Shown here in pieces: positions 7,701-47,514 of a DNA stretch of 64,000 nucleotides. The position numbers and the translations under genes were made by a program. How positions within the stretch are numbered: the first letter of the stretch is position 1; the number at the start of each line of letters is the position of its first letter. This DNA comes from Arenicola marina (Eukaryota; Annelida; Polychaeta; Arenicolidae), in NCBI GenBank assembly GCA_964019135.1, contig OZ025248.1, positions 46,059,670-46,123,669 of the forward strand, read 5' to 3'. The notes below the pieces were generated by a model. The model did no database searches. It was given only the letters and a program-made list of their open reading frames with translations, and had not been told where the DNA came from.

Positions 7701-7996
7701 ATGTGTACACTGGATGACGCCCCGCTTCATGTATACACTGGATGGCGCCCCGCTATATGTATACACCGGATGGCTCCCCGCTATATGTATACACTGGATG
7801 GCGCCCCGCTATATGTATACACTGGATGGCGTCCCGCTATATGTGTACACTGGATGGCTCCCCGCTATATGTATACACTGGAAGGCGCCCCGCTATATGT
7901 ATACACTGGATGGCGTCCCGCTATATGTGTACACTAGATGACGCCCGCTATATGTATACACTGGATGGCGACCCGCTATATGTCTACACTGGATGA
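1750..7996 (+). repeat. Higher-order block, copy 1, of the 28-bp array
   Basis: This multi-kilobase stretch recurs as a near-identical copy further right. The same order of variant units is seen at offsets of 6642 bp (1965 matches 8607), 6530 bp (3156 matches 9686), 6279 bp (4646, 4870, 5626 and 6239 match 10925, 11149, 11905 and 12518) and 6336 bp (7686 matches 14022). Offset steps such as 112 and 56 bp are whole numbers of 28-bp units, so the copies have since gained or lost units. Part of the block (3838-4340) is also repeated inside it at an offset of 1452 bp (5290-5790). Confidence 0.8.
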
Positions 7997-8389
7997 CGAC
8001 CCGCCATATGTATACACTGGATGGCTCCCCGCTATATGTATACACTGGATGACCACCCGCTATATGTATACACTGGATGACGCCCCGCTATATGTGTACA
8101 CTGGATGACGCCCCGCTATATGTATACACTGGATGACGCCCCGCTATATGTATACACTGGATGGCTCCCCGCTATATGTATACACTGGATGGCGCCCCGC
8201 AATATGTATACACTGGATGACGCCCCGCTATATGTATACACTGGATGACGCCCCGCTATATGTGTACACTGGATGACGACCCGATATGCATACACTGGAT
8301 GACCACCCGCTATATGTATACACTGGATGACGCCCCGCTATATGTATACACTGGATGACGCCCCGCTCTATGTATACACTGGATGACGC

Positions 8390-11300: not shown

Positions 11301-14300
11301 TATATGTATACACTCGATGGTGCCCCGCTATATGTATACACTCGATGGCGTCCCGCTATATGTATACCCTGGATGGCGCCCCGCTATATGTATACACTGG
11401 ATGGCGCCCCGCTATATGTATTTACTGGATGGCGCCCCGCTATATGTATACACTGGATGGCTCCCCGCTATATTTATGCACTGGATGACCACCCGCTATA
11501 TGTATACACTGGATGACGCCCCGCTATATGTATACACTGGATGACGCCCCGCTATATGTGTACACTGGATGACGCCCCGCTATATGTGTACACTGGATGA
11601 CGCCCCGCTATATGTATACACTGGATGGCTCCCCGCTATATGTATACACTGGATGACGCCCCGCTATATGTGTACACTGGATGACGCCCCGCTATATGTA
11701 TACACTGGATGGCTCCCCGCTATATGTATACACTGGATGACGCCCCGCTATATGTATACACTGGATGGCTCCCCGCTATATGTATACACTGGATGGCGCC
11801 CCGCTATATGTATACACTCGATGGTGCCCCGCTATATGTATACACTCGATGGCGTCCCGCTATATGTATACACTGGATGACGTCCCGCTATATGTATACA
11901 CTGGATGACGCCCGGCTATATGTATACACTGGATGACGCCCGCTATATGTATACACTGGATGGCGCCCCGCTATATGTATACACTGGATGGCGCCCCGCT
12001 ATATGTATACACTGGATGGCGTCCCGCTATATGTATACACTGGATGGCGCCACGCTATATGTATACACTGGATGGCGCCCCGCTATATGTATACACTGGA
12101 TGGCGCCCCGCTATATGTATACACTGGATGGCGCCCCGCTATATGTATACACTGGATGGCTCCCCGCTTTATGTATACACTGGATGACGCCCCGCTATAT
12201 GTGTACACTGGATGACACCCCGCTATATGTATACACTGGATGGCGTTCCGCTATATGTGTACACTGGCTGGCGTCCCGCTATATGTATACACTGGATGAC
12301 GCCCGCTATATGTGTACACTGGATAACGCCCCGCTATATGTATACACTGGATGACGCCCGCTATATGTGTACACTGGATGACACCCCGCTATATGTATAC
12401 ACTGGATGGCGCCCCGCTATATGTGTACACTGGATGACACCCCGCTATATGTATACACTGGATGGCGCGCCGCTATATGTGTACACTGGATGACCAACCG
12501 CTATATGTATACACTAGATGACGCCCCGCTATATGCATACACTGGATGACGCCCGCTATATGTATACACTGGATGGCGCCCCGCTATATGTATACACTGG
12601 ATGGCGCGCCGCTATATGTATACACTGGATGACGCCCGCTATATGTATACACTGGATGGCGCGCCGCTATATGTGTACACTGGATAACCAACCGCTATAT
12701 GTATACACTAGATGACGCCCCGCTATATGCATACACTGGATGACGCCCGCTATATGTATACACTGGATGGCTCCCCGCTATATGTATACACTGGATGGCG
12801 CGCCGCTATATGTATACACTGGATGACGCCCGCTATATGTATACACTGGATGACGCCCGCTATATGTATACACTAGATGACGCCCCGCTATATGCATACA
12901 CTGGATGACGCCCGCTATATGTATACACTGGATGGCGCCCCGCTATATGTATACACTGGATGGCGCGCCGCTATATGTGTACACTGGATGACACCCCGCT
13001 ATATGTATACACTGGATGGCGCGCCGCTATATGTGTACACTGGATGACGACCCGCTATATGTATACACTGGATGGCTCCCCGCTATATGTATACACTGGA
13101 TGACGCCCCGCTATATGTGTACACTGGATGACGCCCCGCTATATGTATACACTGGATGGCTCCCCGCTATATGTATACACTGGATGACCACCCGCTATAT
13201 GTATACACTGGATGACGCCCCGCTATATGTGTACACTGGATGACGCCCCGCTATATGTATACACTGGATGACGCCCCGCTATATGTGTACACTGGATGGC
13301 TCCCCGCTATATGTATACACTGGATGACGCCCCGCTATATGTATACACTGGATGGCTCCCCGCTATATGTATGCACTGGATGGCGCCCCGCTATATGTAT
13401 ACACTGGATGGCGCCCCGCTATATGTCTTCACTGGATGGCGCCCCGCTATATGTATGCACTGGATGACGCCCCGCTATATGTATACCCTGGATGGCGCCC
13501 CGCTATATGTGTACACTGGATGGCGCCCCGCTATATGTGTACACTGGATGGCTCTCCGCTATATGTGTACACTGGATGACGCCCGCTATATGTATACACT
13601 GGATGGCGTCCCGCTATATGTGTACACTGGATGGCGCCCCGCTATATGTATACACTGGATGGCGCCCCGCTATATGTATACCCTGGATGGCGCCCCGCTA
13701 TATGTATACACTGGATGGCGTCCCGCTATATGTGTACACTGGATGACCACCCGCTATATGTATACACTGGATGACGCCCCGCTATATGTGTACACTGGAT
13801 GACGCCCCGCTATATGTATACACTGGATGACGCCCCGCTATATGTATACACTGGATGGCTCCCCGCTATATGTGTACACTGGATGACGCCCGCTATATGT
13901 ATACACTGGATGGCGACCCGCTATATGTGTACACTGGATGACGACCCGCTATATGTATACACTGGATGGCTCCCCGCTATATGTATACACTGGATGACCA
14001 CCCGCTATATGTATACACTGGATGACGCCCCGCTATATGTGTACACTGGATGACGCCCCGCTTCATGTATACACTGGATGGCGCCCCGCTATATGTATAC
14101 ACCGGATGGCTCCCCGCTATATGTATACACTGGATGGCGCCCCGCTATATGTATACACTGGATGGCGTCCCGCTATATGTGTACACTGGATGGCTCCCCG
14201 CTATATGTATACACTGGAAGGCGCCCCGCTATATGTATACACTGGATGGCGTCCCGCTATATGTGTACACTAGATGACGCCCGCTATATGTATACACTGG

Positions 14301-14340
14301 ATGGCGACCCGCTATATGTCTACACTGGATGACGACCCGC
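8390..14340 (+). repeat. Higher-order block, copy 2, of the 28-bp array
   Basis: This is the second copy of the block at 1750-7996, with the same succession of variant units and only scattered single-base differences. Rare variants serve as markers. GCAATATG occurs near 4463, 8200, 10742 and 14536, and the shortened ACCCGATATGCATAC unit near 4545, 8280, 10824 and 14590. The stretch 4870-5265 recurs at 11149 and again at 14999, showing a further partial round of duplication. Confidence 0.78.
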
Positions 14341-17300
14341 CATATGTATACACTGGATGGCTCCCCGCTATATGTATACACTGGATGACCACCCGCTATA
14401 TGTATACACTGGATGACGCCCCGCTATATGTGTACACTGGATGACGCCCCGCTATATGTATACACTGGATGACGCCCCGCTATATGTATACACTGGATGG
14501 CTCCCCGCTATATGTATACACTGGATGGCGCCCCGCAATATGTATACACTGGATGACGCCCCGCTATATGTATACACTGGATGACGACCCGATATGCATA
14601 CACTGGATGACCACCCGCCATATGTATACACTGGATGACGCCCCGCTATATGTATACACTGGATGACGCCCCGCTCTATGTATACACTGGATGACGCCCC
14701 GCTATATGTATACACTGGATGACGCCCCGCTATATGTATACACTGGATGGCTCCCCGCTATATGTATACACTGGATTACGCCCCGCTATATGTATACACT
14801 GGATGGCGCCCCGCTATATGTATACACTGGATGGCGCCCCGCTATATGTATACACTGGATGACGCCCCGCTATATGTGTACACTGGATGACGCCCCGCTA
14901 TATGTATACACTGGATGGCTCCCCGCTATATGTATACACTGGATGACCACCCGCTATATGTATACACTGGATGACGCCCCGCTATATGTGTACACTGGAT
15001 GACGCCCCGCTATATGTATACACTGGATGACGCCCCGCTATATTTATACACTGGATGGCTCCCCGCTATATGTATACACTGGATGACGACCCGCTATATG
15101 TATACACTGGATGGCTCCCCGCTATATGTATACACTGGATGGCGCCCCGCTATATGTATACACTCGATGGTGCCCCGCTATATGTATACACTCGATGGCG
15201 TCCCGCTATATGTATACCCTGGATGGCGCCCCGCTATATGTATACACTGGATGGCGCCCCGCTATATGTATTTACTGGATGGCGCCCCGCTATATGTATA
15301 CACTGGATGGCTCCCCGCTATATTTATGCACTGGATGACCACCCGCTATATGTATACACTGGATGACGCCCCGCTATATGTATACACTGGATGACGCCCC
15401 GCTATATGTGTACACTGGATGACGCCCCGCTATATGTGTACACTGGATGACGCCCCGCTATATGTATACACTGGATGGCTCCCCGCTATATGTATACACT
15501 GGATGACCACCCGCTATATGTATACACTGGATGACGCCCCGCTATATGTGTACACTGGATGACGCCCCGCTATATGTATACACTGGATGGCTCCCCGCTA
15601 TATGTATACACTGGATGACCACCCGCTATATGTATACACTGGATGACGCCCCGCTATATGTGTACACTGGATGACGCCCCGCTATATGTATACACTGGAT
15701 GACGCCCCGCTATATGTATACACTGGATGGCTCCCCGCTATATGTATACACTGGATGACGACCCGCTATATGTATACACTGGATGGCTCCCCGCTATATG
15801 TATACACTGGATGGCTCCCCGCTATATGTATACACTGGATGACCACCCGCTATATGTATACACTGGATGACGCCCCGCTATATGTATACACTGGATGACG
15901 CCCCGCTATATGTATACACTGGATGGCCACCCGCTATATGTATACACTGGATGACCACCCGCTATATGTATACACTGGATGGCTCCCCGCTATATGTATA
16001 CACTGGATGGTGCCCCGCTATATGTATACACTCGATGGCGTCCCGCTATATGTATACCCTGGATGGCGCCCCGCTATATGTATACACTGGATGGCGCCCC
16101 GCTATATGTATTTACTGGATGGCGCCCCGCTATATGTATACACTGGATGGCTCCCCGCTATATTTATACACTGGATGACCACCCGCTATATGTATACACT
16201 GGATGACGCCCCGCTACTTGTATACACTGGATGACGCCCCGCTATATGTGTACACTGGATGACGCCCCGCTATATGTGTACACTGGATGACGCCCCGCTA
16301 TATGTATACACTGGATGGCTCCCCGCTATATGTATACACTGGATGACCACCCGCTATATGTATACACTGGATGACGCCCCGCTATATGTGTACACTGGAT
16401 GACGCCCCGCTATATGTATACACTGGATGGCTCCCCGCTATATGTATACACTGGATGACCACCCGCTATATGTATACACTGGATGACGCCCCGCTATATG
16501 TGTACACTGGATGACGCCCCGCTATATATATACACTGGATGACGCCCCGCTATATGTATACACTGGATGGCTTCCCGCTATATGTATACACTGGATGACG
16601 ACCCGCTATATGTATACACTGGATGGCTCCCCGCTATATGTATACACTGGATGGCGCCCCGCTATATGTATACACTCGATGGTACCCCGCTATATGTATT
16701 CACTCGATGGCGTCCCGCTATATGTATACACTGGATGACGCCCGCTATATGTATACACTGGATGACGCCCGCTATATGTATACACTGGATGGCGACCCGC
16801 TATATGTATACACTGGATGGCGACCCGCTATATGTATACACTGGATGGCGCCCCGCTATATGTATACACTCGATGGTGCCCCGCTATATGTATACACTCG
16901 ATGGCGTCCCGCTATATGTATACACTGGATGACGTCCCGCTATATGTATACACTGGATGACGCCCGGCTATATGTATACACTGGATGACGCCCGCTATAT
17001 GTATACACTGGATGGCGCCCCGCTATATGTATACACTGGATGGCGCCCCGCTATATGTATACACTGGATGGCGCCCCGCTATATGTGTACACTGGATGGC
17101 GTCCCGCTATATGTGTACACTGGATGGCACCCCGCTATATGTATACACTGGATGGCGTTCCGCTATATGTGTACACTGGATGGCGCCCCGCTTTATGTAT
17201 ACACTGGATGTCGTCCCGCTATATGTGTACACTGGATGACGCCCCGCTATATGTATACACTGGATGACGCCCCGCTATATGTATACACTGGATGGCGCCC

Positions 17301-17494
17301 CGCTATATGTATACACTGGATGGCGCCCCGCTATATGTGTACACTGGATAGCTCCCCGTTATATGTATACACTGGATAGCTCTCCGCTATATGTCTTCAC
17401 TGGATGGCGCCCCGCTATATGTATACACTGGATGATAACATGGCTCGGTCAAGTTCGTTAGCGGGGTATGTACGTAAAAAAAATCGCAAATTTT

Positions 17495-20400
17495 AACCCT
17501 CTCCTACCAGGGTCCGCCCTGACACCCTTTCCTTATAGTGTGCGCCCTGACAACCCTGGCATTCTCTCGTACTAGTGTCCGCCCTGACACCCTTTTCTTA
17601 CAGAATCCGACCTGGCAACCTTTCGTTCCAGTATGCTCACGGCCACCCTCTCCTACCAGTGTCCACCCTGACACCTTCTCCCACCAGTGTCCCCCATGAC
17701 ACCCAATCTTACCAGTGTCCGCCCTGAAACCCAATCTTACCAGTGTCCGCCCTGACACCCTCTCCCACCAGTGTCCGTGCTGACACCCTCTCCTACCAGT
17801 GTCCGCCCTGACACCCTCTCTACCAGTGTCCACCCTGACACCCTCTCCTGCCAGTGTCCACCCTGACACCCTCTCCCACCAGTGTCCCCCATGACACCCA
17901 ATCTTACCAGTGTCCGCCCTGAAACCCAATCTTACCAGTGTCCGCCCTGAAACCCAATCTTACCAGTGTCCGATCTGAAACCCAATCTTACCAGTGTCCG
18001 CTCTGAAACCCAATCTTACCAGTGTCCGCCCTGACACCTTTCCTACCAGTGTCCGCCCTGACACCCTTTTCTTCTAGTGTCCGCCCTGACAACCCTGGCA
18101 TTCTCTCATACAAGTGTTCGCTCTGACACCCTCTCCCACATGTGCCCGACTTGGCACCCTCTCCTACCTTTGTCGGCCATGACACCCTATCCTACCAGTG
18201 TCCGCCTTGACACCCTTTCATACTACTGTCCGCCCTATCATACTCTCCTACCAGTGTCCACCCCGCCACCCCCAACCGGTGTCCGCCATGACACCCTTTT
18301 TTACCAGTGCCCGGTCTGACACCTACTCTTAACAGTGGCCGCCCTGGAGACACTCTCGTACCAGTGTCCGTCCTGACACTGTCTCCTACTAGTGTCCGCC
18401 CTGACACCCTCTCCTACCAGTCTCTGCCATGACACCATCTTCTACCAGTGTCCGCCCTGATATCCTCTCCTACTAGTGTCCGCCCTGACACCCTTCCCTA
18501 CTAGTGTCCGCCCGATCACACTCTCCTACCAGTGTCCGCTCCGACACCCTCTTCTACCAGTGTCCGCCCTGATACCCTCTCCTATCAGTCTCTGCCCTGA
18601 CACCCTCTCCTACTAGTGTCCGCCCTGACACCCTCCCCTACTAGTGTCCGCCCGATCACACTCTCCTACCAGTGTCCGCTCCGACACCCTCTTCTACCAG
18701 TGTCCGCCCTAAAACCCTCTCCTACCAGTGTCCGCCCTGACATCCTCTCCTACTAGTGTCCGCCCTGACACCTTTTGTAACCAGTGTCCGCCCTGGCAAC
18801 CTCTCCAACCAGTGTACTCCCTGACACCCAATCCTGCCAGCGTCCTCCCTGACTCCCTCTCTTACCAGTGTCCGACCAGACACCTTCTCTAACCAGTGTC
18901 CACCCAGATACCCTCTCCTACCAGTGTCCGCAAAGACACCCTCTCCTGCCAGTGTCCACCCTGACACCCTCTCCCACCAGTGTCCCCCATGACACCCAAT
19001 CTTACCAGTGTCCGCCCTGAAACCCAATCTTACCAGTGTCCGCCCTGAAACCCAATCTTACCAGTGTCCGATCTGAAACCCAATCTTACCAGTGTCCGCT
19101 CTGAAACCCAATCTTACCAGTGTCCGCCCTGACACCTTTCCTACCAGTGTCCGCCCTGACACCCTTTTCTTCTAGTGTCCGCCCTGACAACCCTGGCATT
19201 CTCTCGTACTAGTGTCCGCCCTGACACCCTTTTCTTACAGAATCCGACCTGGCAACCTTTCGTTCCAGTATGCTCACGGCCACCCTCTCCTACCAGTGTC
19301 CACCCTGACACCTTCTCCCACCAGTGTCCCCCATGACACCCAATCTTACCAGTGTCCGCCCTGAAACCCAATCTTACCAGTGTCCGCCCTGACACCCTCT
19401 CCCACCAGTGTCCGTGCTGACACCCTCTCCTACCAGTGTCCGCCCTGACACCCTCTCTACCAGTGTCCACCCTGACACCCTCTCCTGCCAGTGTCCACCC
19501 TGACACCCTCTCCCACCAGTGTCCCCCATGACACCCAATCTTACCAGTGTCCGCCCTGAAACCCAATCTTACCAGTGTCCGCCCTGAAACCCAATCTTAC
19601 CAGTGTCCGATCTGAAACCCAATCTTACCAGTGTCCGCTCTGAAACCCAATCTTACCAGTGTCCGCCCTGACACCTTTCCTACCAGTGTCCGCCCTGACA
19701 CCCTTTTCTTCTAGTGTCCGCCCTGACAACCCTGGCATTCTCTCATACAAGTGTTCGCTCTGACACCCTCTCCCACATGTGCCCGACTTGGCACCCTCTC
19801 CTACCTTTGTCGGCCATGACACCCTATCCTACCAGTGTCCGCCTTGACACCCTTTCATACTACTGTCCGCCCTATCATACTCTCCTACCAGTGTCCACCC
19901 CGCCACCCCCAACCGGTGTCCGCCATGACACCCTTTTTTACCAGTGCCCGGTCTGACACCTACTCTTAACAGTGGCCGCCCTGGAGACACTCTCGTACCA
20001 GTGTCCGTCCTGACACTGTCTCCTACTAGTGTCCGCCCTGACACCCTCTCCTACCAGTCTCTGCCATGACACCATCTTCTACCAGTGTCCGCCCTGATAT
20101 CCTCTCCTACTAGTGTCCGCCCTGACACCCTTCCCTACTAGTGTCCGCCCGATCACACTCTCCTACCAGTGTCCGCTCCGACACCCTCTTCTACCAGTGT
20201 CCGCCCTGATACCCTCTCCTATCAGTCTCTGCCCTGACACCCTCTCCTACTAGTGTCCGCCCTGACACCCTCCCCTACTAGTGTCCGCCCGATCACACTC
20301 TCCTACCAGTGTCCGCTCCGACACCCTCTTCTACCAGTGTCCGCCCTAAAACCCTCTCCTACCAGTGTCCGCCCTGACATCCTCTCCTACTAGTGTCCGC

Positions 20401-23034
20401 CCTGACACCTTTTGTAACCAGTGTCCGCCCTGGCAACCTCTCCAACCAGTGTACTCCCTGACACCCAATCCTGCCAGCGTCCTCCCTGACTCCCTCTCTT
20501 ACCAGTGTCCGACCAGACACCTTCTCTAACCAGTGTCCACCCAGATACCCTCTCCTACCAGTGTCCGCAAAGACACCCTCTCCTGCCAGTGTCCACCCTG
20601 ACACCCTCTCCCACCAGTGTCCCCCATGACACCCAATCTTACCAGTGTCCGCCCTGAAACCCAATCTTACCAGTGTCCGCCCTGAAACCCAATCTTACCA
20701 GTGTCCGATCTGAAACCCAATCTTACCAGTGTCCGCTCTGAAACCCAATCTTACCAGTGTCCGCCCTGACACCTTTCCTACCAGTGTCCGCCCTGACACC
20801 CTTTTCTTCTAGTGTCCGCCCTGACAACCCTGGCATTCTCTCATACAAGTGTTCGCTCTGACACCCTCTCCCACATGTGCCCGACTTGGCACCCTCTCCT
20901 ACCTTTGTCGGCCATGACACCCTATCCTACCAGTGTCCGCCTTGACACCCTTTCATACTACTGTCCGCCCTATCATACTCTCCTACCAGTGTCCACCCCG
21001 CCACCCCCAACCGGTGTCCGCCATGACACCCTTTTTTACCAGTGCCCGGTCTGACACCTACTCTTAACAGTGGCCGCCCTGGAGACACTCTCGTACCAGT
21101 GTCCGTCCTGACACTGTCTCCTACTAGTGTCCGCCCTGACACCCTCTCCTACCAGTCTCTGCCATGACACCATCTTCTACCAGTGTCCGCCCTGATATCC
21201 TCTCCTACTAGTGTCCGCCCTGACACCCTTCCCTACTAGTGTCCGCCCGATCACACTCTCCTACCAGTGTCCGCTCCGACACCCTCTTCTACCAGTGTCC
21301 GCCCTGATACCCTCTCCTATCAGTCTCTGCCCTGACACCCTCTCCTACTAGTGTCCGCCCTGACACCCTCCCCTACTAGTGTCCGCCCGATCACACTCTC
21401 CTACCAGTGTCCGCTCCGACACCCTCTTCTACCAGTGTCCGCCCTAAAACCCTCTCCTACCAGTGTCCGCCCTGACATCCTCTCCTACTAGTGTCCGCCC
21501 TGACACCTTTTGTAACCAGTGTCCGCCCTGGCAACCTCTCCAACCAGTGTACTCCCTGACACCCAATCCTGCCAGCGTCCTCCCTGACTTCCTCTCTTAC
21601 CAGTGTCCGACCAGACACCTTCTCTAACCAGTGTCCACCCAGATACCCTCTCCTACCAGTGTCCGCAAAGACACCCTCTCCTGCCAGTGTCCGCCCTCAC
21701 ACCCTCTCCTACCAGTGTCCGCCCTGACACCCTCTCCTACCAGTCTCTGCCATGACACCATCTCTTACCAGTGTCCGCCCTGACACCCTCTACTACCAGT
21801 GTCCGCCCTGACACCCTCTCCTACCAGTGTCCGCCCTGACATCCTCTCCTACTAGTGTCCGCCCGATCACACTCTCCTACCATAGTCCGCCCTGACACTT
21901 TCTGTAACCAGTGTCCGCCTTGACACCCTCTCCTACTAGAGTCCGCCCTGACACCCAATCTTACCAATGTCCGCCCTGACTCCCTCTCCTTCCAGTGTCC
22001 GCCCTGACCCCCTCTCCTACCAGTGTCCGTCCTGACATCCTCTCCTACCAGTGTCCTCCCTGACACATAATCCTATCAGTGTTCGCCCTGACACATAATC
22101 CTCTCAGTGTCCGCCCTGACACACTCTCCTACCAGTGTCCGTCCTGACATCCTCTCCTACCAGTGTTCGCCCTGACACATAATCCTCTCAGTGTCCGCCC
22201 TGACACCCTCTCCTACCAGTGTCCGCCCTGACACCCTCTCCTACCAGTGTCCGCCCGGACACCCTCTCCTACTAGTGTCCGCCCTGGCACCCTCTCCTAC
22301 CAGTGTTCGCCCTGACACATAATCCTCCCAGTGTTCGCCCTGACACATAATCCTCTCTGTGTCCGCCCGGACACCCTCTCCTACTAGTGTCCGCCCTGGC
22401 ACCCTCTCCTACCAGTGTTCGCCCTGACACATAATCCTCCCAGTGTCCGCCCTGACACCCTCTGCTGCCAGCCTCCGCCCTGATATCCAATCCCACCAAT
22501 GTCCGCCCTGACACCCTCTCCTACCAGTGCCCGCCCTGACACCCTGTCTTACCAGTGTCTGCCCTGACACCCTCTCCCACACGTGTTCGCACTGACATCT
22601 TCTTCTATTAGTGTCAGACCTGACACCCTCCCCTACTAGTGTCCGCAATATCACACTTTCCTACCAGTTTCCGTCCAGACAACCACTCCTACCAGTGTCC
22701 ATCCTGACACCCTCTCCTACCAGTGTCCGCCCTGAAACCCGCTCCTAAAAGTGTCCACCCTGACACCGGCTCCTAGAAGTGTCCACCCTGACACCCTCTC
22801 CTGCCAGCGTCCGCCATGACATCCAATCCCACCAGTGTCCGCCCTGACACCCTCTCCTTCTAGTGTCCGCCCTGACACCCTTTCCTACCAATGTCCTCCC
22901 TGACACCCTCTCCCACCAGTGTCCGCGATGGCACCCTCTCCTACCAATGTCCGCCCTGCCACCCTCTCCCACCATTGTCCGCCCTGCCACCCTCTCCCAC
23001 CATTGTCCGCCCTGCCACCCTCTCCTACCAGTGT
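17495..23034 (+). repeat. Second 28-bp minisatellite array, about 198 units
   Basis: The unit is 28 bp and built on CCAGTGTCCGCCCTGACACC followed by CTCTCCTA. It is pyrimidine-rich on the plus strand and has no evident sequence kinship with the 28-bp array to its left, from which it is separated by about 60 bp (17434-17494). Variant tails include CAATCTTA, CTTTTCTT and ATAATCCT. Minus-strand open frames up to 141 codons are repeat by-products. Confidence 0.96.
17504..21680 (+). repeat. Higher-order duplications of 1637 and 1098 bp in the second array
   Basis: The unit order from 17504 recurs from 19141 (offset 1637 bp; further anchors 17988 to 19625 and 18722 to 20359). A third partial copy follows at an offset of 1098 bp (19625 to 20723, 20359 to 21457), ending near 21680. 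The copies look almost identical over long stretches, with a few differences near the start of the first copy, so the duplications are recent or are homogenised. Confidence 0.85.
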
Positions 23035-23617: not shown

Positions 23618-23653
23618 CACGGGGGCTAGGGTCACGTGAGCTGGGGTCACGTG
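23618..23653. promoter_or_regulatory. Clustered GGGTCACG motifs with two CACGTG E-boxes
   Basis: Three GGGTCACG-type motifs occur within 36 bp, and two of them complete the palindrome CACGTG (23633-23638 and 23648-23653). CACGTG is the class B E-box bound by bHLH-zip factors such as USF, MITF and Myc/Max. That is family knowledge; binding here is inference. Confidence 0.4.
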
Positions 23654-26218: not shown

Positions 26219-27382
26219 GCCGCCGAAGCAGACTCGCCAACGGCGCCTCAATTGGTTGCCCCTAAAGGCGCTCGGAGAATGCAACCCAATTAGGTGTCAG
26301 AAATGGGGGTACGCTGAGGGAGGGGAAGAGGGAGGGGGAGGGGAGGAGAGAGGTGGATGGGGAAGGAGCTGCGTGGGTGAGTGGGTGGGTGGGCGTGGAC
26401 GGCGTCTATCGCTGCGCTGTACACCACTTGGCGGTCAGGAAGACGTAACGTGTTCACCGCTAGTTCCACATCCGCCTCTCCGCTCCGTGGTGCTCTAGCG
26501 CTCCGCTCCTCGCCCACCTGTGTGATATGCCCTGAGGCGGGTGGGTGGGAGGGGGGCGGATGGTGATGTCATTGAGGCAAGGATAACGGCCTTCTTCTGG
26601 TCCGGTGGACGCCGAGACGCCAGCGAGAGCCACGCACACAGCGGGCGGCGTCCTTCCGCTCTTCATTTATTTAGCCTCATCGAGCGAACATCCGGGCAAT
26701 AATAATACGAGACATAACCAGTCTACTCCCCTACGAGATGGCATACTGGATGTAGGCTACGCACAGATCAGGTGATGTAGAGCCGCGGGTGACCCACAAC
26801 GAGAGGATAATGACCAGCGAACGAGGAGCGTGCTGGCTCCGACGGGACACTACCGATCTCGGTCCTTTTGTGGGTGATTCGAGGATAAATATTGACGTCC
26901 TGTTACAAAGAGGCTAATGTCACACCACTTCGCCGCGGAGGACCGCCTCTTCACCGCGGAGTGATATCCTGTGGAGTAAGTAGGATGGGGAGGTTTTGAA
27001 TGGAGCTTGTAGCGCCATTGGTGGTTAACGCGCCGCTTCCGTATCAACGCTTGGGGATGTTTTACCCACGCTGCCACGGGCCCTGTTGCGGACCACGTGG
27101 TGACAATCAACGCCAAATGTCTGTCTTAGGGTCGTTCATTTCCATCGGGGCGGCTGTCCACGCAATACGTGTTCGCTTATTACCGTGCCATTTGGCGGCA
27201 TCTTTAGAGTTTGAGTAATTCCACTGATGGTCCAGTGAAAACCTTGCTAAAGTGAGGAAAAGTGGGCGATACTGTTGCCTTGGGACGGGAAAGTGGGTGC
27301 ATCGGAGTGTACCCCCCAGCAAGGCGCGGTAGGGGTAGGCGGGGCGCCCTACCTCCCCCCGGGGGGGTTGGGGAGGAAGGCC
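26219..27382 (+). promoter_or_regulatory. 5' flank and probable leader of the rapsyn-like gene
   Basis: This stretch holds no recognisable coding region. 26310-26370 is a purine, G-run tract. No TATA box is positioned convincingly; GATAAATATT at about 26883 is a weak candidate. A perfect 10-bp palindrome ACCACGTGGT lies at 27092-27101. The start codon at 27383 has G at -3 and G at +4, a good Kozak context. An upstream in-frame ATG at 27275 would add 36 residues that do not resemble rapsyn and would bury the N-terminal glycine, so it is not chosen. Confidence 0.4.
27092..27101. promoter_or_regulatory. Palindromic CACGTG E-box
   Basis: ACCACGTGGT is a perfect 10-bp palindrome centred on CACGTG, about 290 bp upstream of the rapsyn-like start codon. 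It is a candidate bHLH site; occupancy is inference. Confidence 0.35.
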
Positions 27383-28069
27383 ATGGGTCAGGCTCTGGCC
27401 AAGAAGGACATCCAGCAGGGCATACGGCTCTACCAGGGCCAACAGTACGACATGGCCATCCGCAAATGGAAGCGGAGTCTGCACCGCCTACACAGCCGAC
27501 ACCAGCGCTTCCTCACGCTGGGCTACCTGGCCACGGCCCACGGCGACTTCGGCCACTTCCGGGACATGCTGGCCTACGCAGTGATGCAGATCGACCTGGC
27601 GAACGAGGCCGAGTCATCGGTGATGCGCGCCGAGGCCTACCTCAACCTGGCCCGCAGCAACGAGCGGCTGTGCGAGTACCACAAGGCCGTGGCCTACTGC
27701 CGCCACTGCCTGCAGACCCAGCCCCTGGACATGCGGGTCCACGGCCACGTCTACCTCATCCAGGGCAAGGCCTACTTCGGCTTCAGCAATTTCGCCAAGT
27801 CGATGGAGATGCTGGAGTACGCCATGCGTATCGCCAGACAGGCCGGGGACGCGGAGCTAGAGCTGGAGGTATACACCACGCTGGGACACATCTTCTGCCT
27901 GCTGCGGGACAGCGAGAAGGCGCTCAGGTTCCACAGCAAGGCCGCTGAGCTGGCTCAGGGACTCGAACCTCCAGACCCCAGCGCCAAGTACCACCGCCAG
28001 ACAGCGCTTAACATGGCCCAGGCCTACGCCAGCGACAGCCGACTGGAGGAGGCGGCGGAGTGCTGCCAG
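27383..28069 (+). CDS. RAPSN: Rapsyn-like protein, first coding exon (partial)
   Basis: Rapsyn is the cytoplasmic, membrane-anchored scaffold that clusters acetylcholine receptors at synapses. This exon encodes 229 residues that follow vertebrate rapsyn almost without gaps. The start MGQ matches the N-myristoylation signal of the family. Residues 86-93 read YLNLARSN, as in the human protein, and include the asparagine equivalent to human N88. Tetratricopeptide repeats lie at about 6-39, 43-76, 83-116, 123-156 and 163-196; a sixth begins near 206 and is cut by the exon end after ECCQ. The exon ends in phase 0 at CAG followed by GTAAGT, at the position matching human residue 229. Nearly all codons end in G or C. 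About 180 further residues are expected (the remaining TPRs, a coiled coil and a RING-H2 domain), but none were found in the window. The last 12 codons form the first unit of the 46-bp array that follows. Confidence 0.88.
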
Positions 28070-30142
28070 GTAAGTCAGTGACAACCGGTTAGAGGAGGTG
28101 ACGGAGTGCTGCCAGGTAAGTCAGTGACAACCGGTTAGAGGCGGTGACGGAGTGCTGCCAGGTAAGTCAGTGACAGCCGACTGGAGGAGGCGGCGGAGTG
28201 CTGCCAGGTAAGTCAGTGACAGCCGACTGGAGGAGGCGGCGGAGTGCTGCCAGGTAAGTCAGTGACAACCGGTTAGAGGAGGTGACGGAGTGCTGTCAGG
28301 TAAGTCAGTGACAGCCGACTGGAGGAGGCGGCGGAGTGCTGCCAGGTAAGTCAGTGACAGCCGACTGGAGGAGGCGGCGGAGTGCTGCCAGGTAAGTCAG
28401 TGACAGCCGACTGGAGGAGGCGGCGGAGTGCTGCCAGGTAAGTCAGTGACAGCCGACTGGAGGAGGCGGCGGAGTGCTGCCAGGTAAGTCAGTGACAGCC
28501 GACTGGAGGAGGCGGCGGAGTGCTGCCAGGTAAGTCAGTGACAGCCGACTGGAGGAGGCGGCGGCGTGCTGCCAGGTAAGTCAGTGACAGCCGACTGGAG
28601 GAGGCGGCGGAGTGCTGCCAGGTAAGTCAGTGACAGCCGACTGGAGGAGGCGGCGGCGTGCTGCCAGGTAAGTCAGTGACAGCCGACTGGAGGAGGCGGC
28701 GGCGTGCTGCCAGGTAAGTCAGTGACAGCCGACTGGAGGAGGCGGCGGAGTGCTGCCAGGTAAGTCAGTGACAGCCGACTGGAGGAGGCGGCGCAGTGCT
28801 GCCAGGTAAGTCAGTGACAGCCGACTGGAGGAGGCGGCGGAGTGCTGCCAGGTAAGTCAGTGACAGCCGACTGGAAGAGACGGCGGAGTGCTGCCAGGTA
28901 AGTCAATGACAGCCGACTGGAGGAGGCGGCGGAGTGCTGCCAGGTAAGTCAGTGACAGCCGACTGGAGGAGGCGGCGGAGTGCTGCCAGGTAAGTCAGTG
29001 ACAACCGGTTAGAGGAGGTGACGGAGTGCTGCCAGGTAAGTCAGTGACAGCCGACTGGAGGAGGCGGCGGAGTGCTGCCAGGTAAGTCAGTGACAGCCGA
29101 CTGGAGGAGGCGGCGGAGTGCTGCCAGGTAAGTCAGTGACAACCGGTTAGAGGAGGTGACGGAGTGCTGCCAGGTAAGTCAGTGACAGCCGACTGGAGGA
29201 GGCGGCGGAGTGCTGCCAGGTAAGTCAGTGACAACCGGTTAGAGGAGGTGACGGAGTGCTGCCAGGTAAGTCAGTGACAGCCGATTGGAGGAGGCGGCGG
29301 AGTGCTGCCAGGTAAGTCAGTGACAGCCAACTGGAGGCGGTGACGGATTGCTGCCAGGTAAGTCAGTGACAGCCGGTTAGAGGCGGTGACGGAGTGCTGC
29401 CAGGTAAGTCAGTGACAGCCGACTGGAGGAGGCGGCGGAGTGCTGCCAGGTAAGTCAGTGACAGCCGACTGGAGGAGGCGGCGGAGTGCTGCCAGGTAAG
29501 TCAGTGACAACCGGTTAGAGGAGGTGACGGAGTGCTGCCAGGTAAGTCAGTGACAGCCGACTGGAGGAGGCGGCGGAGTGCTGCCAGGTAAGTCAGTGAC
29601 AGCCGACTGGAGGGGGCGGCGGAGTGCTGCCAGGTAAGTCAGTGACAACCGGTTAGAGGAGGTGACGGAGTGCTGCTAGGTAAGTCAGTGACAGCCGACT
29701 GGAGGAGGCGGCGGAGTGCTGCCAGGTAAGTCAGTGACAACCAACTGGAGGCGGTGACGGAGTGATGCCAGGCAAGTCAGTGACAGCCGGTTAGAGGCGG
29801 TGACGGAGTGCTGCCAGGTAAGTCAGTGACAACCGGTTAGAGGGGGCGACGGAGTGCTGCCAGGTAAGTCAGTGACAGCCGACTGGAGGAGGCGGCGGAG
29901 TGCTGCCAGGTAGGTCAGTGACAGCCGACTGGAGGAGGCGGCGGAGTGCTGCCAGGTAAGTCAGTGACAACCGGTTAGAGGCGGTGACGGAGTGCTGCCA
30001 GGTAAGTCAGCGACAGCCGACTGGAGGAGGCGGCGGAGTGCTGCCAGGTAAGTCAGTGACAGCCGCCTGGAGGAGGCGGCGGAGTGCTGCCAGGTAAGTC
30101 AGTGACAGCCGGTTAGAGGGGGTGACTGAATGATGCCAGGTA
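28034..30142 (+). repeat. 46-bp minisatellite made from the exon end and splice donor, 46 units
   Basis: The first unit is coding (residues DSRLEEAAECCQ plus donor GTAAGTCAGT). It is then repeated in register: the GT of the exon donor is at 28070 and that of the last unit at 30140, which is exactly 45 times 46 bp. Two main variants alternate, one carrying CCGACTGGAGGAGGCGGCGG and the other CCGGTTAGAGGAGGTGACGG. The 3' half of the unit, including CAGGTAAGT, is almost invariant. Visible exceptions include TAGGTAAGT near 29675, a GC-type donor near 29770, GTAGGT near 29910 and GTAAGC in the last unit. Confidence 0.95.
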
Positions 30143-31540
30143 AGCAACAGCTGCTTTGGCGGATACCTGTATGTATTTACCTCTTGACGTGTAAATTCTT
30201 GTGCCCGCTGGCAGAGGGTGGGGGTGGGGGATCCGATGGAAACAAAGTGGGAGAAGGAGAAGTTCGACATGTGAACGGAGTTCCAAGAGTTCTCGATTAG
30301 TATCCCTCCCACCTCCCTCTCGGCCCCCTCCCACCTCCCGCTCGGCCCCCTCCCACCCGCCCCCGGAAGCCCCATTGATCATTCACCAGTGCTAACGATT
30401 TGTACATTAACGCTCGACATCCTTCCGCAGCGAATGGTGTGCTACTCAGGAAAGAGGAAGCCGTTTGATGGGGATGCTGGTAGATATGTTGTTTGGCTGC
30501 TCATAATAATTACACCTGCGATGAATGAACGAATTGGTGTTTTTTGCCACTTGTGTGCACACAAGGATTTAACTGGATCAAAGAACCCCCCATTGTGATG
30601 GAGGATGAACATATATCCCTGGCTAAAGCCGACTAAGTGCCATAAATCCAGATCAGTTTTGGTCAAACGCTTGAAGAATAAAATAAGCAAGTCGTGTCTA
30701 ATAGCTCAGTTAACATCACCATCATTAAATATCCAGGATTCTATCTTTGGAACAAAACAAAAACCTTTCGTGATGGGAAAATACTTTCAACCCTTCCACC
30801 GGTTCTTCATTCCTATTGGATGGGAACAATTGTTGTTAGCAGTGGACCCAACGGGTTTTGGTCAGTGAGTTCGCCGCCTTGATAGTATCATATACAAGTT
30901 AACATCTGTCTAGGCGACCCTTGTCACTTTGCGAAAAAAATCAACCAGCAGAACAGGTACACCACCTGTGCTGCCTCTAGTTAGCCATTCTGCACTTAAC
31001 ATGAATTGTTATTCCAGAAGTTTTTTGGCGGGGGTTGTTTTTCTGGAGGGGGCCATGTCTGAGTAAGTCAGCCCCGAGCAGGCACCCAATAAACAGTGCG
31101 GACCAATAAAGGAACCCTTGCAGCATGATCCACGTGAGAGGGGGGGGGTGGGTCTCGCCCCCGCCATCGTTGACTTGTTTGCCTCAATCACATATAGTAT
31201 GGAGGGGAGGGCGTAATTATTTCGCCACACAGTGTGCGATCGCCCCCCCCCCCTTCCCCACCCCACGTCGTCCCTTTCCCACTGCCACATGAACCGGAAT
31301 TAAAAAGGGTGGAGTGGGGTAGGGTGGTAACGCGTACGTCGGTGACTATATTGAATGAGCGGTCCCCATCCACTTTACTGCCTGGAAACAAGTAATGTAG
31401 CCAAGGAAAGAGCTATTAGCATGGGCAACCCTACATAGTCTACCCATATGCGGAGACTCGGTGAATGCAGACCTGAAATGTCAAGTATTGCACCTTTGTT
31501 GCCCCATTGCTCATATGCATTGTCTGTGGATGGGTATTGT

Positions 31541-35600: not shown

Positions 35601-36993
35601 AGCCGCTGACAGAGTACCCTGTCCCTTATCGTCCGTTTTCACGGGGGTCGTGGCCCCACTGCTGTGTCGCCGGCACTTCTCACTCTTTCTCCTGCCCATT
35701 GAGACGGCCACCTACCTAAACAGGCATGTCGAATGGTGCAATGCCGCCTGTCTGGCTCCGCACAATCAGTATCAGATATATATTCCAAATAATGATGCGG
35801 CCGACAATAGTAATCGGGACATTTTCTCTCGCGGTGTTCCCGGTATCCTTACACAGTTTCTATTTCATAGTGACTATACACTGGACGCCCGTTTACTGTA
35901 AATGCCATGCTGTTCCTAAGGAACACAATTATGTTAAGGAGAATGCCCATGTAACAGTACATTCGTGAAAAAGAATGAACGAGGCGCAAGCCTCGTACAT
36001 ATCCTTTCAAGAATGAACTGTAACACGGGTATTCTCTGACTTAAAGTACGGTGAGCCTCACCTGTTCCCAGTAGCGTGAATATGAGTCCTATGAGATGCA
36101 CATTGCATCTCGCTTCCAAAACCAATAAAATAGCTGGCAGAAGCCGGACCGTCTTTCATCTTAGAACCCACGAAATGTATTATTGTAGTACATGGCCCCG
36201 GGGAAAACGGTAGGCTAATTGAGTCGCACGTGTCCTAAGATAAAACAATGGTTCGCCCCAACATGGAAGAACCGTCGGACCCCGCAGCCAAAGGCAGATT
36301 AGTTCATCTGTAGATTGCAAGAATGAAGTTTCGAATCGAGGCGCGTAGGCTACTTTACCGGGATTACATGTCCTTATACAGGCGATCATTGTCATTTGAA
36401 TAATATATGATGCAATCGTACAAATTATTGGATGCTAAAAAGATATGATATGCAGCGATGTTATGATGATGGAAACAAGGAACATAACGTTAAGTTTGTT
36501 GATGGATATGATACGCATTTGGCTGCGGAATATGTCGTTGGTAGTAAATGTAGACCATAAAAAATCCTTTCTCAATGTGACGGAATTGATGAAGCAAAAC
36601 AAATAATATGTCAGTAAACGGATTTCAAAAATGTTGCCCGCTACGACTCAGCGGCGCCAGGCCCCTGATCGCATTGATAGGCATGAAAGCGACTGTCAGT
36701 AAGAGGGAAGACGACCAACTGATGAGGACCAGACAATGACAAGGGACAGCTCGAGGTCTATCATGGGTCATCGGGGTCTCGCCCACCACAGACAGACACG
36801 GTGACTGTTCGCCTCCCCGCTCCGCCAGGCGGCAGTCACGTCGGCCGGACGGCCGGCGACGGCAGACACGGCAGACACGGCAGACACGGCGGCAGGGGCG
36901 TGTCCTGTCCTATACGGGGCCGCGGGGTCAACGTTACGGACGTCAGTCTTCATTGGCAGCCGCCGCTGGGGGAGGAAGAGCAGACGTGAGGCG
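35601..36993. other. Unique DNA without a recognisable gene
   Basis: Mixed-composition DNA with only short open frames. The right end turns GC-rich from about 36780 and carries four tandem copies of a 9-bp GGCAGACAC-type unit at 36860-36890, immediately before the 17-bp array. Confidence 0.5.
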
Positions 36994-41296: not shown

Positions 41297-42499
41297 ATCG
41301 CCCAGCGCTGCCATTGGAGCGGGACATCCCAGGGGGTCCAGGGGGCGCTCGGGGACCCGCTATCAGCGCCCTCACGCGGCAGCCAGGTCACGTTGGAGAT
41401 TGTCCGGCGCGTGATCACATGGAAGCGAAGGATAACTTCCGCTGTTGCGCGGTCCAATGTTTGACGAGTCTGTCTGTGTGTCTGTCCAGTCGCCACTGCG
41501 GTGTCCCCGGGTCACAGACAGGTCGGGATGCCTAGGGGAAGGGCAGCCGCTGCCAGAACAACCTACGGTCACTTACAGCCAGCCTTCTGGCTCGCCACTG
41601 TCAACGTATGATTGTCAGCAGTGATTATACTTCCTCCTATATCTGTGGTCGGTGCTTTTAATACCCATTTCTGTTTCTGTTACGTGCCCTCACTGTAACC
41701 CTACGCCTGTGTGATATCAGAGTCTGTGGATCTAAATAGCCAGCTTCGGGCCTCTCCCCTGAGGCTACCTTCCCCCTCCCCTTCCCATCCGTAACCGCCA
41801 CCGCCCACCCCTCGTCTGCACGGTGACCCAATCCGTCCGGCCCTCCCAGCACACAGCGCCATCGCGCAAGTGATATTCCTCGGAAGGCTGCCCTCTCGCC
41901 GGCTTGATTTAGTACATCCGGGTCTTGCCGGCTATTGGTGGCTGGCATTATAGGGGATGCGGCGATAAAACCTGAACAGTGTATGGACACGCCGCTGGAG
42001 AGGTCGACTGGGACGCCAAGACATAAATCACTAAGAAGAACTGCGCAGGAGGCGAGGAATTGACTCCGCACAAGGACAATATTTTGACAATAGTTTTTCT
42101 ATGTATCATAGCCGGCTTCCTGGACAACCTGGTGATATTCTGTTGGCCCGGCAACGCACATCATTTCATCTCCATAACACGGGTATTCAGGACCTTTATT
42201 GAAGAAAGTATTAAGCGCATGTGCAAACCCTTCGATAAAACATTTTGTGACAAGCATTTCCTTCTTTTAGTAATGCCGCCAATACTATTAAGGCGAAAAC
42301 AGCGCCTTTATCCGAAGCGGGATATGCTAATAGGATGCAGATTATTGGACGTCGTCTTCCGCTTCTCCGGGCAACAAAGCCACGTCCGGGAAGCCAAGAA
42401 AAGGCTGTTCCGGTTGCGCGAGAAAGATGAATACGAGAATAGGTTTGGGGACAAGGCAATTTCATTCAGAAGAAGAACAAATATTACCATGTCTGCAAA
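41297..42499. other. Unique spacer between arrays
   Basis: GC-rich at the left, with readable but ambiguous frames on both strands at 41310-41440. The right half is AT-richer. Only the open frame listed separately is longer than about 140 codons. Confidence 0.45.
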
Positions 42500-42536
42500 C
42501 GGGAGAGGGACATATCACCGTGTGTCGTACGACTAG
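42060..42536 (+). other. Open frame of 158 codons, unrecognised
   Basis: The frame starts MTPHKDNILTIVFLC, has a hydrophobic stretch at about residues 9-30, then a basic, arginine-rich second half, and runs into the first units of the 33-bp array before stopping. I recognise no family. It shows neither the strong G/C third-position bias of the rapsyn exon nor splice signals that I trust, so it may be a chance frame. Confidence 0.2.
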
Positions 42537-45500
42537 ATGGGGACCTATCACTGTGTGTCGTACGACGGGATGGGGACCTATCACTGTGTGTCGTACGACG
42601 GGATGGGGACCTATCACTGTGTGTCGTACGACGGGAGGGGGACCTATCACTGTGTGTCGTACGACGGGATAGGGGACCTATCACTGTGTGTCGTACGACG
42701 GGATAGGGGACCTATCACTGTGTGTCGTACGACGGGATGGGGACCTATCACTCTGTGTCGTACGACGGGAGGGGGACCTATCACTGTGTGTCGTACGACG
42801 GGAGGGGGACCTATCACTGTGTGTCGTACGACTGGAGGGGGACCTATCACTGTGTGTCGTACGACGGGAGGGGGACCTATCACTGTGTGTCGTACGACTG
42901 GAGGGGGACCTATCACTGTGTGTCGTACGACTGGAGGGGGACCTTTCACTGTGTGTCGTACGACGGGAGGGGGACCTATCACTGTGTGTGGTACAACGGG
43001 ATGGGGACCTATCACTGTGTGTCGTACGACGGGAGGGGGACCTATCACTGTGTGTCGTACGACGGGATGGGGACCTATCACTGTGTCGTACGACTGGAGG
43101 GGGAGCTATCACTGTGTGTCGTACGACGGGATGGGGACCTATCACTGTGTGTCGTACGACGGGAGGGAGACCTATTACTGTGTGTCGTACGACTGGAGGG
43201 GGACCTATCAATGTGTGTCGTACGACTGGAGGGGGACCTATCACTGTGTGTCGTACGACGGGAGGGGGACCTATCACTGTGTGTCGTACGACGGGATGGG
43301 GACCTATCACTGTGTCGTACGACTGGAGGGGGAGCTATCACTGTGTGTCGTACGACGGGATGGGGACCTATCACTGTGTGTCGTACGACGGGAGGGAGAC
43401 CTATTACTGTGTGTCGTACGACTGGAGGGGGACCTATCAATGTGTGTCGTACGACTGGAGGGGGACCTATCACTGTGTCGTACGGCTGGAGGGGCACCTA
43501 TCACTGTGTGTCGTACGACGGGATAGGGACCTATCATTGTGTGTCGTACGACGGGAGGGGGACCTATCACTGTGTGTCGTACGACTGGAGGGGGACCTAT
43601 CACTGTGTGTCGTACGACGGGATGGGGACCTATCACTGTGTGTCGTACGACGGGATGGGGACCTATCACTGTGTGTCGTACGACGGGATGGGGAACTATC
43701 ACTGTGTGTCGTACGATGGGATGGGGAACTGTCACTGTGTGTCGTACGACGGGATGGGAAACTATCACTGTGTGTCGTACGACGGGATGGGGACCTATCA
43801 CTGTGTGTCGTACGACGGGATGGGGAACTATCACTGTGTGTCGTACGACGGGATGGGGACCTATCACTGTGTGTCGTACGACGGGATGGGGACCTGTCAC
43901 TGTGTGTGGTACGACGGGATGGGGAACTATCACTGTGTGTGGTACGATGGGATGGGGACCTGTCACTGTGTGTGGTACGACGGGAGGGGGACCTATCACT
44001 GTGTGTCGTACGACGGGATGGGGAACTATCACTGTGTGTCGTACGATGGGATGGGGAACTGTCACTGTGTGTCGTACGACGGGAGGGGGACCTATCACTG
44101 TGTGTCGTACGACGGGATGGGGACTTATCACTGTGTGTCGTACGACGGGATGGGGAACTATCACTGTGTGTCGTACGACGGGATGGGGACCTATCACTGT
44201 GTGTCGTACGACGGGATGGGGACCTGTCACTGTGTGTGGTACGACGGGATGGGGAACTATCACTGTGTGTCGTACGATGGGATGGGGACCTGTCACTGTG
44301 TGTGGTACGACGGGAGGGGGACCTATCACTGTGTGTGGTACGACGGGATGGGGACCTATCACTGTGTGTCGTACGACGGGATGGGGACCTATCACTGTGT
44401 GTGGTACGACGGGAGGGGGACCTATCACTGTGTGTCGTAAGACGGGATGGCGACCTATCACTGTGTGTCGTACGACTGGAGGGGGACCTATCACTGTGTG
44501 TCGTACGACGGGAGGGGGACCTATCACTGTGTGTCGTACGACGGGAGGGGGACCTATCACTGTGTGTCGTACGACGGGAGGGGGACCTATCACTGTGTGT
44601 CGTACGACGGGATGGGGAACTATCACTGTGTGTCGTACGACTGGAGGGGGACCTGTCACTGTCTGTCGTACGACGGGATGGGGAACTATCACTGTGTCGT
44701 ACGACGGGATGGGGACCTATCACTGTGTGTCGTACGACGGGATGGGGAACTATCACTGTGTGTCGTACGACGGGATGGGGGAACTATCACTGTGTGTCGT
44801 ACGATGGGATGGGGACCTGTCACTGTGTGTGGTACGACGGGAGGGGGACCTATCACTGTGTGTTGTACGACGGGATGGGGACCTATCACTGTGTGTGGTA
44901 CGACGGGATGGGGACCTATCACTGTGTGTCGTACGACGGGATGGGGACCTATCACTGTGTGTGGTACGACGGGAGGGGGACCTATCACTGTGTGTCGTAC
45001 GACGGGATGGGGACCTATCACTGTGTGTCGTACGACGGGATGGGGACCTGTCACTGTGTGTGGTACGACGGGATGGGGAACTATCACTGTGTGTCGTACG
45101 ATGGGATGGGGACCTGTCACTGTGTGTGGTACGACGGGAGGGGGACCTATCACTGTGTGTGGTACGACGGGATGGGGACCTATCACTGTGTGTCGTACGA
45201 CGGGATGGGGACCTATCACTGTGTGTGGTACGACGGGAGGGGGACCTATCACTGTGTGTCGTAAGACGGGATGGCGACCTATCACTGTGTGTCGTACGAC
45301 TGGAGGGGGACCTATCACTGTGTGTCGTACGACGGGAGGGGGACCTATCACTGTGTGTCGTACGATGGGATGGCGACCTATCACTGTGTGTCGTACGACG
45401 GGAGGGGGACCTATCACTGTGTGTCGTACGACGGGATGGGGAACTATCACTGTGTGTCGTACGACTGGAGGGGGACCTGTCACTGTCTGTCGTACGACGG

Positions 45501-47514
45501 GATGGGGAACTATCACTGTGTCGTACGACGGGATGGGGACCTATCACTGTGTGTCGTACGACGGGATGGGGAACTATCACTGTGTGTCGTACGACGGGAT
45601 GGGGGAACTATCACTGTGTGTCGTACGATGGGATGGGGACCTGTCACTGTGTGTGGTACGACGGGAGGGGGACCTATCACTGTGTGTTGTACGACGGGAT
45701 GGGGACCTATCACTGTGTGTGGTACGACGGGATGGGGACCTATCACTGTGTGTCGTACGACGGGATGGGGACCTATCACTGTGTGTGGTACGACGGGAGG
45801 GGGACCTATCACTGTGTGTCGTACGACGGGATGGGGACCTATCACTGTGTGTCGTACGACGGGAGGGGGACCTATCACTGTGTGTCGTACGACTGGAGGG
45901 GGACCTATTACTGTGTGTCGTACGATGGGATGGGGACCTATCACTGTGTGTCGTACGACGGGAGGGGGACCTATCACTGTGTGTCGTACGAATGGATGGG
46001 GACCTATCACTGTGTGTCGTACGACGGGATGGCGACCTATCACTGTGTGTCGTACGACTGGAGGGGGACCTATCACTGTGTGTCGTACGACGGGAGGGGG
46101 ACCTATCACTGTGTGTCGTACGACGGGATGGGGACCTATCACTGTGTGTCGTACGACTGGAGGGGGACCTATTACTGTGTGTCGTACGATGGGATGGGGA
46201 CCTATCACTGTGTGTCGTACGACGGGAGGGGGACCTATCACTGTGTGTCGTACGACGAGATAGGGACCTATCACTGTGTGTCGTACGACGGGATGGGGAC
46301 CTATCACTGTGTGTCGTACGACGGGATTGGGACCTGTCGCTGTGTGTGGTACGACGGGATGGGGACCTATCACTGTGTGTCGTACGACTGGAGGGGGACC
46401 TATTACTGTGTGTCGTACGATGGGATGGGGACCTATCACTGTGTGTCGTACGACGGGAGGGGGACCTATCACTGTGTGTCGTACGACGAGATAGGGACCT
46501 ATCACTGTGTGTCGTACGACGGGATGGGGACCTATCACTGTGTGTCGTACGACGGGATTGGGACTTGTCGCTGTGTGTGGTACGACGGGAGGGGGACCTA
46601 TCACTGTGTGTCGTACGACGGGATGGGGACCTACCACTGTGTGTCGTACGACGAGATGGGGACCTATTACTGTGTTTCGTACGATGGGATGGGGACCTAT
46701 CACTGTGTGTCGTACGACGGGAGGGGGACCTATCACTGTGTGTCGTACGACGGGATGGGGACCTATCACTGTGTGTCGTACGACGGGAGGGGGACCTATC
46801 ACTGTGTGTCGTACGACTGGAGGGGGACCTATCACTGTGTGTGGTACGACGGAGGGGGACCTATCACTGTGTGTGGTACGACGGGAGGGGGACCTATCAC
46901 TGTGTATCGTACGACGGGATTGGGACCTGTCGCTGTGTGTGGTACGACGGGAGGGGGACCTATCACTGTGTGTCGTACGACGGGATGGGGACCTACCACT
47001 GTGTGTCGTACGACGAGATGGGGACCTATTACTGTGTTTCGTACGATGGGATGGGGACCTATCACTGTGTGTCGTACGACGGGAGGGGGACCTATCACTG
47101 TGTGTCGTACGACTGGATGGGGACCTATCACTGTGTGTCGTACGACGGGAGGGGGACCTATCACTGTGTGTCGTACGACTGGAGGGGGACCTATCACTGT
47201 GTGTGGTACGACGGAGGGGGACCTATCACTGTGTGTGGTACGACGGGAGGGGGACCTATCACTGTGTATCGTACGACGGGATGGGGACCTATTACTGTGT
47301 GTCGTACGATGGGATGGGGATCTATCACTGTGTGTCGTACGACGGGAGGGGGACCTATCACTGTGTGTCGTACGACTGGAGGGGGACCTATCACTGTGTG
47401 TCGTACGACTGGAGGGGGACCTATCACTGTGTGTCGTACGACGGGATGGGGACCTATCACTGTGTGTCGTACGACGGGATGGGGACCTATCACTGTGTGT
47501 CGTACGACTGGAGG
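42500..47514 (+). repeat. 33-bp minisatellite, about 152 units
   Basis: The unit is 33 bp, built on GGGGACCTATCACTGTGTGT followed by CGTACGACGGGAT. It contains the 10-bp palindrome GTCGTACGAC. The unit length is a multiple of three and five of six frames lack stops, so very long frames occur on both strands (up to 1330 codons on plus at 43539-47531 and 461 on minus). Indels of one or two bases shift them between the repeats GWGPITVCRTT, GMGTYHCVSYD and DGDLSLCVVRR. Nothing else supports translation. Confidence 0.96.
43870..45600 (+). repeat. 824-bp tandem duplication inside the 33-bp array
   Basis: A run of variant units recurs at an offset of 824 bp. Marker pairs are GTCGTAAGACGGGATGGCG at about 44436 and 45260, and the shortened CACTGTGTCGTACGACGG units at about 44690 and 45514. 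824 is one base short of 25 units, which fits a shared 1-bp indel. A smaller repeat with an offset of 229 bp joins about 43082 and 43311. Confidence 0.8.

Follow-up and report, generated by a model that had tools for sequence, protein, structure and literature searches.

A tandem array of 46 units copies the end of a rapsyn exon and its 5' splice donor in Arenicola marina

We analyzed a 64-kb stretch of Arenicola marina DNA (hereafter, the window), in which the final bases of the first rapsyn coding exon, together with the opening bases of the intron that follows, recur as a 46-bp tandem repeat of 46 units. We consider it probable (roughly 0.75) that this is a minisatellite of the type called a "mirage" in lancelets, which was seeded by the exon, is now intronic, grew by ordinary repeat turnover, and is tolerated by normal splicing. 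The array was most likely tolerated rather than selected. Features are listed in Table 1.

Table 1. Location of the exon, the array, and the splicing features in the window
Feature	Position	Strand	Remarks
Rapsyn coding exon	27383-28069	+	229 codons; MGQ start; ends with CAG in phase 0
46-bp minisatellite	28030-30144	+	TRF and 46-bp stepping; 46 copies, 0 indels; covers exon end and donor
First 5' splice donor, CAG/GTAAGTCAG	28070-28078	+	Only donor leaving the frame open
In-frame TGA	28079-28081	+	Met if donor 1 is skipped: V-S-Q, then stop
Donor of unit 46, GTAAGCAACA	30140-30149	+	Last and most diverged unit; non-repeat sequence 3' of it

The exon and the anatomy of the array

The exon shows the features expected of rapsyn, namely the N-terminal region, TPRs, and an MGQ start with glycine at position 2. 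Its product matched the Pfam model Rapsyn_N (1.7e-19) and several TPR models. When aligned with a provisional human rapsyn sequence (used here and below), 96 of 231 aligned positions were identical (42%, three gaps) and no frame break was found; the alignment begins at MGQ and extends to the final codon 5' of the donor, paired with human E230. The assignment of the gene to rapsyn in the initial annotation was therefore supported by both the Pfam match and the alignment to the provisional human sequence. Gly2 of rapsyn is the myristoylation site, as stated in PMC10494853. A PDB sequence search with the exon product returned 17 sequences (best 4.6e-17), none of which was named rapsyn. We take all 17 to be TPR-type proteins. 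The end of the exon is a putative boundary, placed by homology and by the donor motif.

Unit 1 consists of 28034-28069, i.e., 12 codons (DSRLEEAAECCQ), and the first 10 intron bases (GTAAGTCAGT), which agrees with the composition initially proposed (the last 12 codons plus the first 10 intron bases). The TRF row for the array (28030-30144, period 46, 46.0 copies) gave 91% matches and 0% indels with a score of 3460, and all 46 units were in register when the sequence was cut in 46-bp steps from 28034. Of the initially annotated span, 28034-30142, the start was retained as the first base of the 46 units, whereas the TRF repeat ends at 30144. The boundary of the unit is in any case arbitrary: CAG at 28030-28032, 5' of unit 1, matches the repeat as well. 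We found 18 distinct unit sequences, and 22 of the 46 units, unit 1 counted, were identical to unit 1. There are two main unit types, DSRLEEAAECCQ and DNRLEEVTECCQ, and mixed forms exist (e.g., units 29 and 38). Unit 46 departs from the consensus at 13 of its 46 positions, and the 46 bases that follow it do so at 36.

The initial annotation had also noted that the array shows no length drift. The observation itself was confirmed, with no indels and a spacing of 2070 bp (45 x 46) between the GT dinucleotides of the first and last donors (28070 and 30140), but it did not prove special relative to other arrays. Absence of indels was dropped as a special sign after comparison with five other long arrays in the window: off-period k-mer gaps were 0 of 42 here and 44 of 556, 13 of 94, 9 of 93, 11 of 126, and 3 of 332 in the others, such that four of the five compared arrays had 7.9 to 13.8% of gaps off-period. 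The steady 46-bp register is the tidy end of this range and is not unique.

Splice donors, reading frame, and constraint

The donor 9-mer CAGGTAAGT is perfect in 42 of the 46 units, and each of the remaining four donors (TAGGTAAGT, CAGGCAAGT, CAGGTAGGT, and CAGGTAAGC, one unit each) is one base off. GT is kept in 45 of 46 units, with GC in unit 38. Both strands of the window contain 42 occurrences of CAGGTAAGT, all within the array; 100 shuffles yielded 0.57 on average and never more than 3. The array had been described at the outset as 46 in-register 5' splice sites and as dozens of near-perfect donors in a row; the former holds under TRF and the 46-bp cutting, and the latter under the 42 perfect copies, none of which has a counterpart elsewhere in the window. 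In the 15 bases scored upstream of each of the seven AG positions in the consensus unit, the pyrimidine content is 27-47%, and acceptor-like sites within this unit look poor.

The in-frame TGA at 28079-28081 is located upstream of donors 2-46, and all of these donors therefore include it (the frame was followed explicitly for donors 1-5, 45, and 46, and the consequence was deduced from the stop position for the rest). Because the frame ends after V-S-Q, only donor 1 can yield intact rapsyn. Given this stop and a unit length indivisible by 3, no series of rapsyn isoforms results. On these grounds, donor 1 is the predicted productive splice site. When 5' sites are equal, the intron-proximal one is often preferred. 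The 45 near-perfect downstream donors should compete with donor 1, and the neutral reading thus requires a bias in donor choice.

We detected no selective constraint on the donors or on the copied codons, at low power: 28 distinct changes, all from a single array, entered these tests. Variable positions accounted for 4 of 9 in the donor and 19 of 37 elsewhere in the unit (Fisher p = 1.0). In the copied codons, we counted 20 distinct changes (8 synonymous, 10 nonsynonymous, and 2 creating stops), whereas 22 of the 108 possible single changes in these codons are synonymous. By plain count, the synonymous share was above expectation (8/20 versus 22/108, P = 0.036), a weak hint of an earlier coding phase in the evolution of the copies. 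With separate weights for transitions and transversions, the expected number was 5.6 against the 8 observed (P of 8 or more = 0.16); additionally omitting changes private to the last unit left 6 of 18 synonymous (P = 0.40), and the test on transitions alone gave p = 0.57. A stop was found within the copied codons of 3 of the 46 units.

These results bear on whether the array works as a splicing switch, in some respects like that of human IFI6, in which regulated distal donors would produce unproductive messages and copy number would tune the rapsyn dose via nonsense-mediated decay. The 42 perfect donors and the stop included by every distal donor would suit such a switch, as would the use of two downstream repeat units as donors in IFI6 (PMC4526556). 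Nevertheless, we regard it as unlikely, given that constraint on the donors was not detected, albeit at low power, and that no alternative protein set arises from a unit that is not a multiple of three with a stop after donor 1.

Origin of the array and its setting

The homology with human rapsyn reaches the last codon of the exon. The 36 coding bases copied in the array are therefore ancestral, and the exon seeded the array rather than the reverse. This homology, obtained with the provisional human sequence, shows the direction to have been exon first. The initial proposal that a coding exon border became the seed of a tandem array thus stands, on the basis of both the unit anatomy and the homology up to the last codon.

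From this starting point, we infer the duplication mechanism, the splicing outcome, and the neutrality of the array. The 3' end of the rapsyn exon and the start of the intron would have been duplicated in tandem, and the copies would have multiplied inside the intron via slippage or unequal exchange, i.e., ordinary repeat turnover. The other 45 units would then be intronic copies, whose donors, if used, would add V-S-Q and a stop; use of donors 2-46 would consequently yield truncated or NMD-targeted messages. The array would persist as normal splicing tolerates it, perhaps aided by cap-proximal donor preference and by splicing enhancers within the long exon that precedes it. Units three apart were 0.947 alike, a value that none of 2000 shuffles attained (p = 0.004 when the highest unit similarity over lags 1-12 is taken), and this similarity at lag three suggests block amplification. 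A slippage junction between the CAG/AGC motifs of the exon and the intron was also considered and was dropped by eye, as their spacing misfits the 46-bp register.

The array could be real in kind while its 46 copies reflect expansion or collapse in the assembly. Long arrays are generally prone to misassembly, and PMC3087553 describes one mirage as apparently misassembled in the lancelet draft genome. However, 18 distinct units, a structured order, and a diverged last unit are unlike simple duplicated reads, and we consider an assembly artefact or a wrong copy number improbable.

The window is rich in tandem arrays. Thirteen arrays, obtained by merging 26 TRF rows with overlapping rows joined, occupy 46785 of 64000 bp (73%); short arrays at 23625-23653, 26318-26365, 30304-30357, and 36859-36890 were left out of this number. 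With the rapsyn array included, 943 of the 17215 non-array positions (5.5%) lie 46 bp or less from an array edge, and an array that meets an exon border is therefore not extraordinary here. The rapsyn exon was the only exon recognised in the window when 11 open stretches were scanned against Pfam. Among the open stretches listed, 10 longer ones outside or at array edges were scanned, and nine had no match at E 0.01; the tenth had a single sub-cut-off match (RecA_dep_nuc, E 0.009, 16.6 versus 26.9 bits) in the array at 40111. An Rfam scan gave no family at the gathering threshold.

The other arrays of the window have their own features. A 28-bp array of approximately 622 copies extends over more than 17 kb (68-17434). 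A second 28-bp array (17496-23034, approximately 197 copies) includes pyrimidine-rich CTCTCCTACCAG, similar by eye to a 3' splice acceptor; no exon was recognised next to this array. The 33-bp array at 42499-47512 (approximately 152 copies) has open stretches of 863, 1024, and 1328 aa in three plus-strand frames, one of which reads GTYHCVSY by eye, and the open stretch that enters this array (42027-42533) had no Pfam match at E 0.01. The consensus of a 31-bp array (50038-61907, approximately 383 copies) holds CAGGTCACT on the rapsyn strand, with a 7/9 match to a splice donor. Finally, a 41-bp array that runs up to the window end (63462-64000) has TTGCAG acceptor-like motifs in its unit, by eye.

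We found no next rapsyn exon in 30150-64000 by tblastn with the provisional human rapsyn sequence. Apart from hits to the exon and to its copies in the array, the strongest downstream match (62938-63027; E 0.88, or E 0.35 with human residues 229-412 alone) was considered noise. When the same region was scanned without gaps with residues 231-412 of that sequence, there was one plus-strand segment at score 38, and the controls gave one minus-strand segment at score 40 and none with the reversed sequence. The C-terminal TPRs, the coiled coil, and RING-H2 were likewise not found in 30150-64000 and may lie beyond the window. Accordingly, either the intron is longer than 33.8 kb or the next exon was missed. 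The splice variants found in PMC10494853 include c.532, c.912, and c.913, among others; none of those found is at c.690. Judging from the alignment to the provisional human sequence, an intron preceding c.532 in human would map within this exon, which has no interruption at that point.

The lack of a rapsyn exon in the following 33.8 kb might also indicate that the exon comes from a pseudogene or a truncated copy, in which case the array would have no splicing consequence. The 229 open codons, the MGQ start, the Pfam match, and the 42% identity to the provisional human rapsyn sequence with no frame break argue against such an origin and render it quite unlikely. Decidedly improbable, too, is a role of the array as a U1 snRNP platform, in which 45 near-perfect decoy donors, placed shortly after the genuine donor in a very long intron, would control how much rapsyn splicing is productive relative to unproductive, or would shield the intron from premature polyadenylation, with copy number tuning receptor clustering. 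We give hardly any credence to a store of variant codons of the DSRLEEAAECCQ and DNRLEEVTECCQ types from which gene conversion would supply the exon, as the plain synonymous excess (P = 0.036) is not significant with transitions weighed (P = 0.16) and stops occur in 3 of 46 units, although the two main unit types are present and 21 of the 45 other units equal the exon end exactly, such that exon and array either exchange sequence or separated recently.

Comparison with known systems

Arrays of this kind have precedents. The initial annotation knew of no established example, a claim that does not hold in view of the lancelet mirages (PMC3087553, PMC3902484) and human IFI6 (PMC4526556). The term mirage denotes exon-intron boundaries duplicated in tandem in the manner of a minisatellite, and the hosts described include Adh3, troponin C (TnC), the globins BflGb6 and BflGb9, and PGBD5, of which PMC3902484 adds PGBD5 and cites TnC; the turnover of the clusters resembles that of other minisatellites (PMC3087553, PMC3902484). 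Further traits of the class are undisturbed regular splicing, length differences among haplotypes, somatic instability, and a cephalochordate host. Reported units are 10-72 bp long in Adh3 and 150-160 bp in the globins (PMC3087553), and copy numbers are 6 and 3 in the BflGb6 haplotypes and 2 to 7, depending on the assembly, in PGBD5 (PMC3087553, PMC3902484). The rapsyn array is likewise a tandem repeat across an exon-intron boundary that copies splice signals, with many units carrying them (GT in 45 of 46, perfect CAGGTAAGT in 42 of 46), and its 46-bp unit is within the range given in PMC3087553.

Human IFI6 (6-16) is similar in that a minisatellite supplies multiple splice donor sites (Turri 1995, cited in PMC4526556); two downstream repeat units serve as donors, and three mRNA species are made (PMC4526556). 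Repeat donors that give rise to in-frame alternative proteins, as in IFI6, were not found here, because 46 is not a multiple of 3 and a stop is present at 28079-28081. The IFI6 unit is 12 nt long, is present in approximately 26 copies, and stays in frame, whereas the rapsyn unit is 46 nt long with a stop after donor 1.

In the model of Rogers, tandem AG/GT duplication creates copies of splice borders as raw material for introns (PMC3087553; see also PMC2891723 and PMC4974935), and mirages have been proposed as such raw material for new introns (PMC3087553). The rapsyn array differs from this kind of intron gain: it is located in an apparently existing intron, and no new intron was shown.

With 46 near-equal donors of which only the first can be productive, the locus provides a natural test of 5' splice site choice by the spliceosome and of the extent to which a gene can bear duplicated donors, and the mirage class gains a large member. 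The kind is already known; it is the number of units that sets the rapsyn array apart, with 46 units of the 5' donor against 2-7 in the globins and PGBD5.
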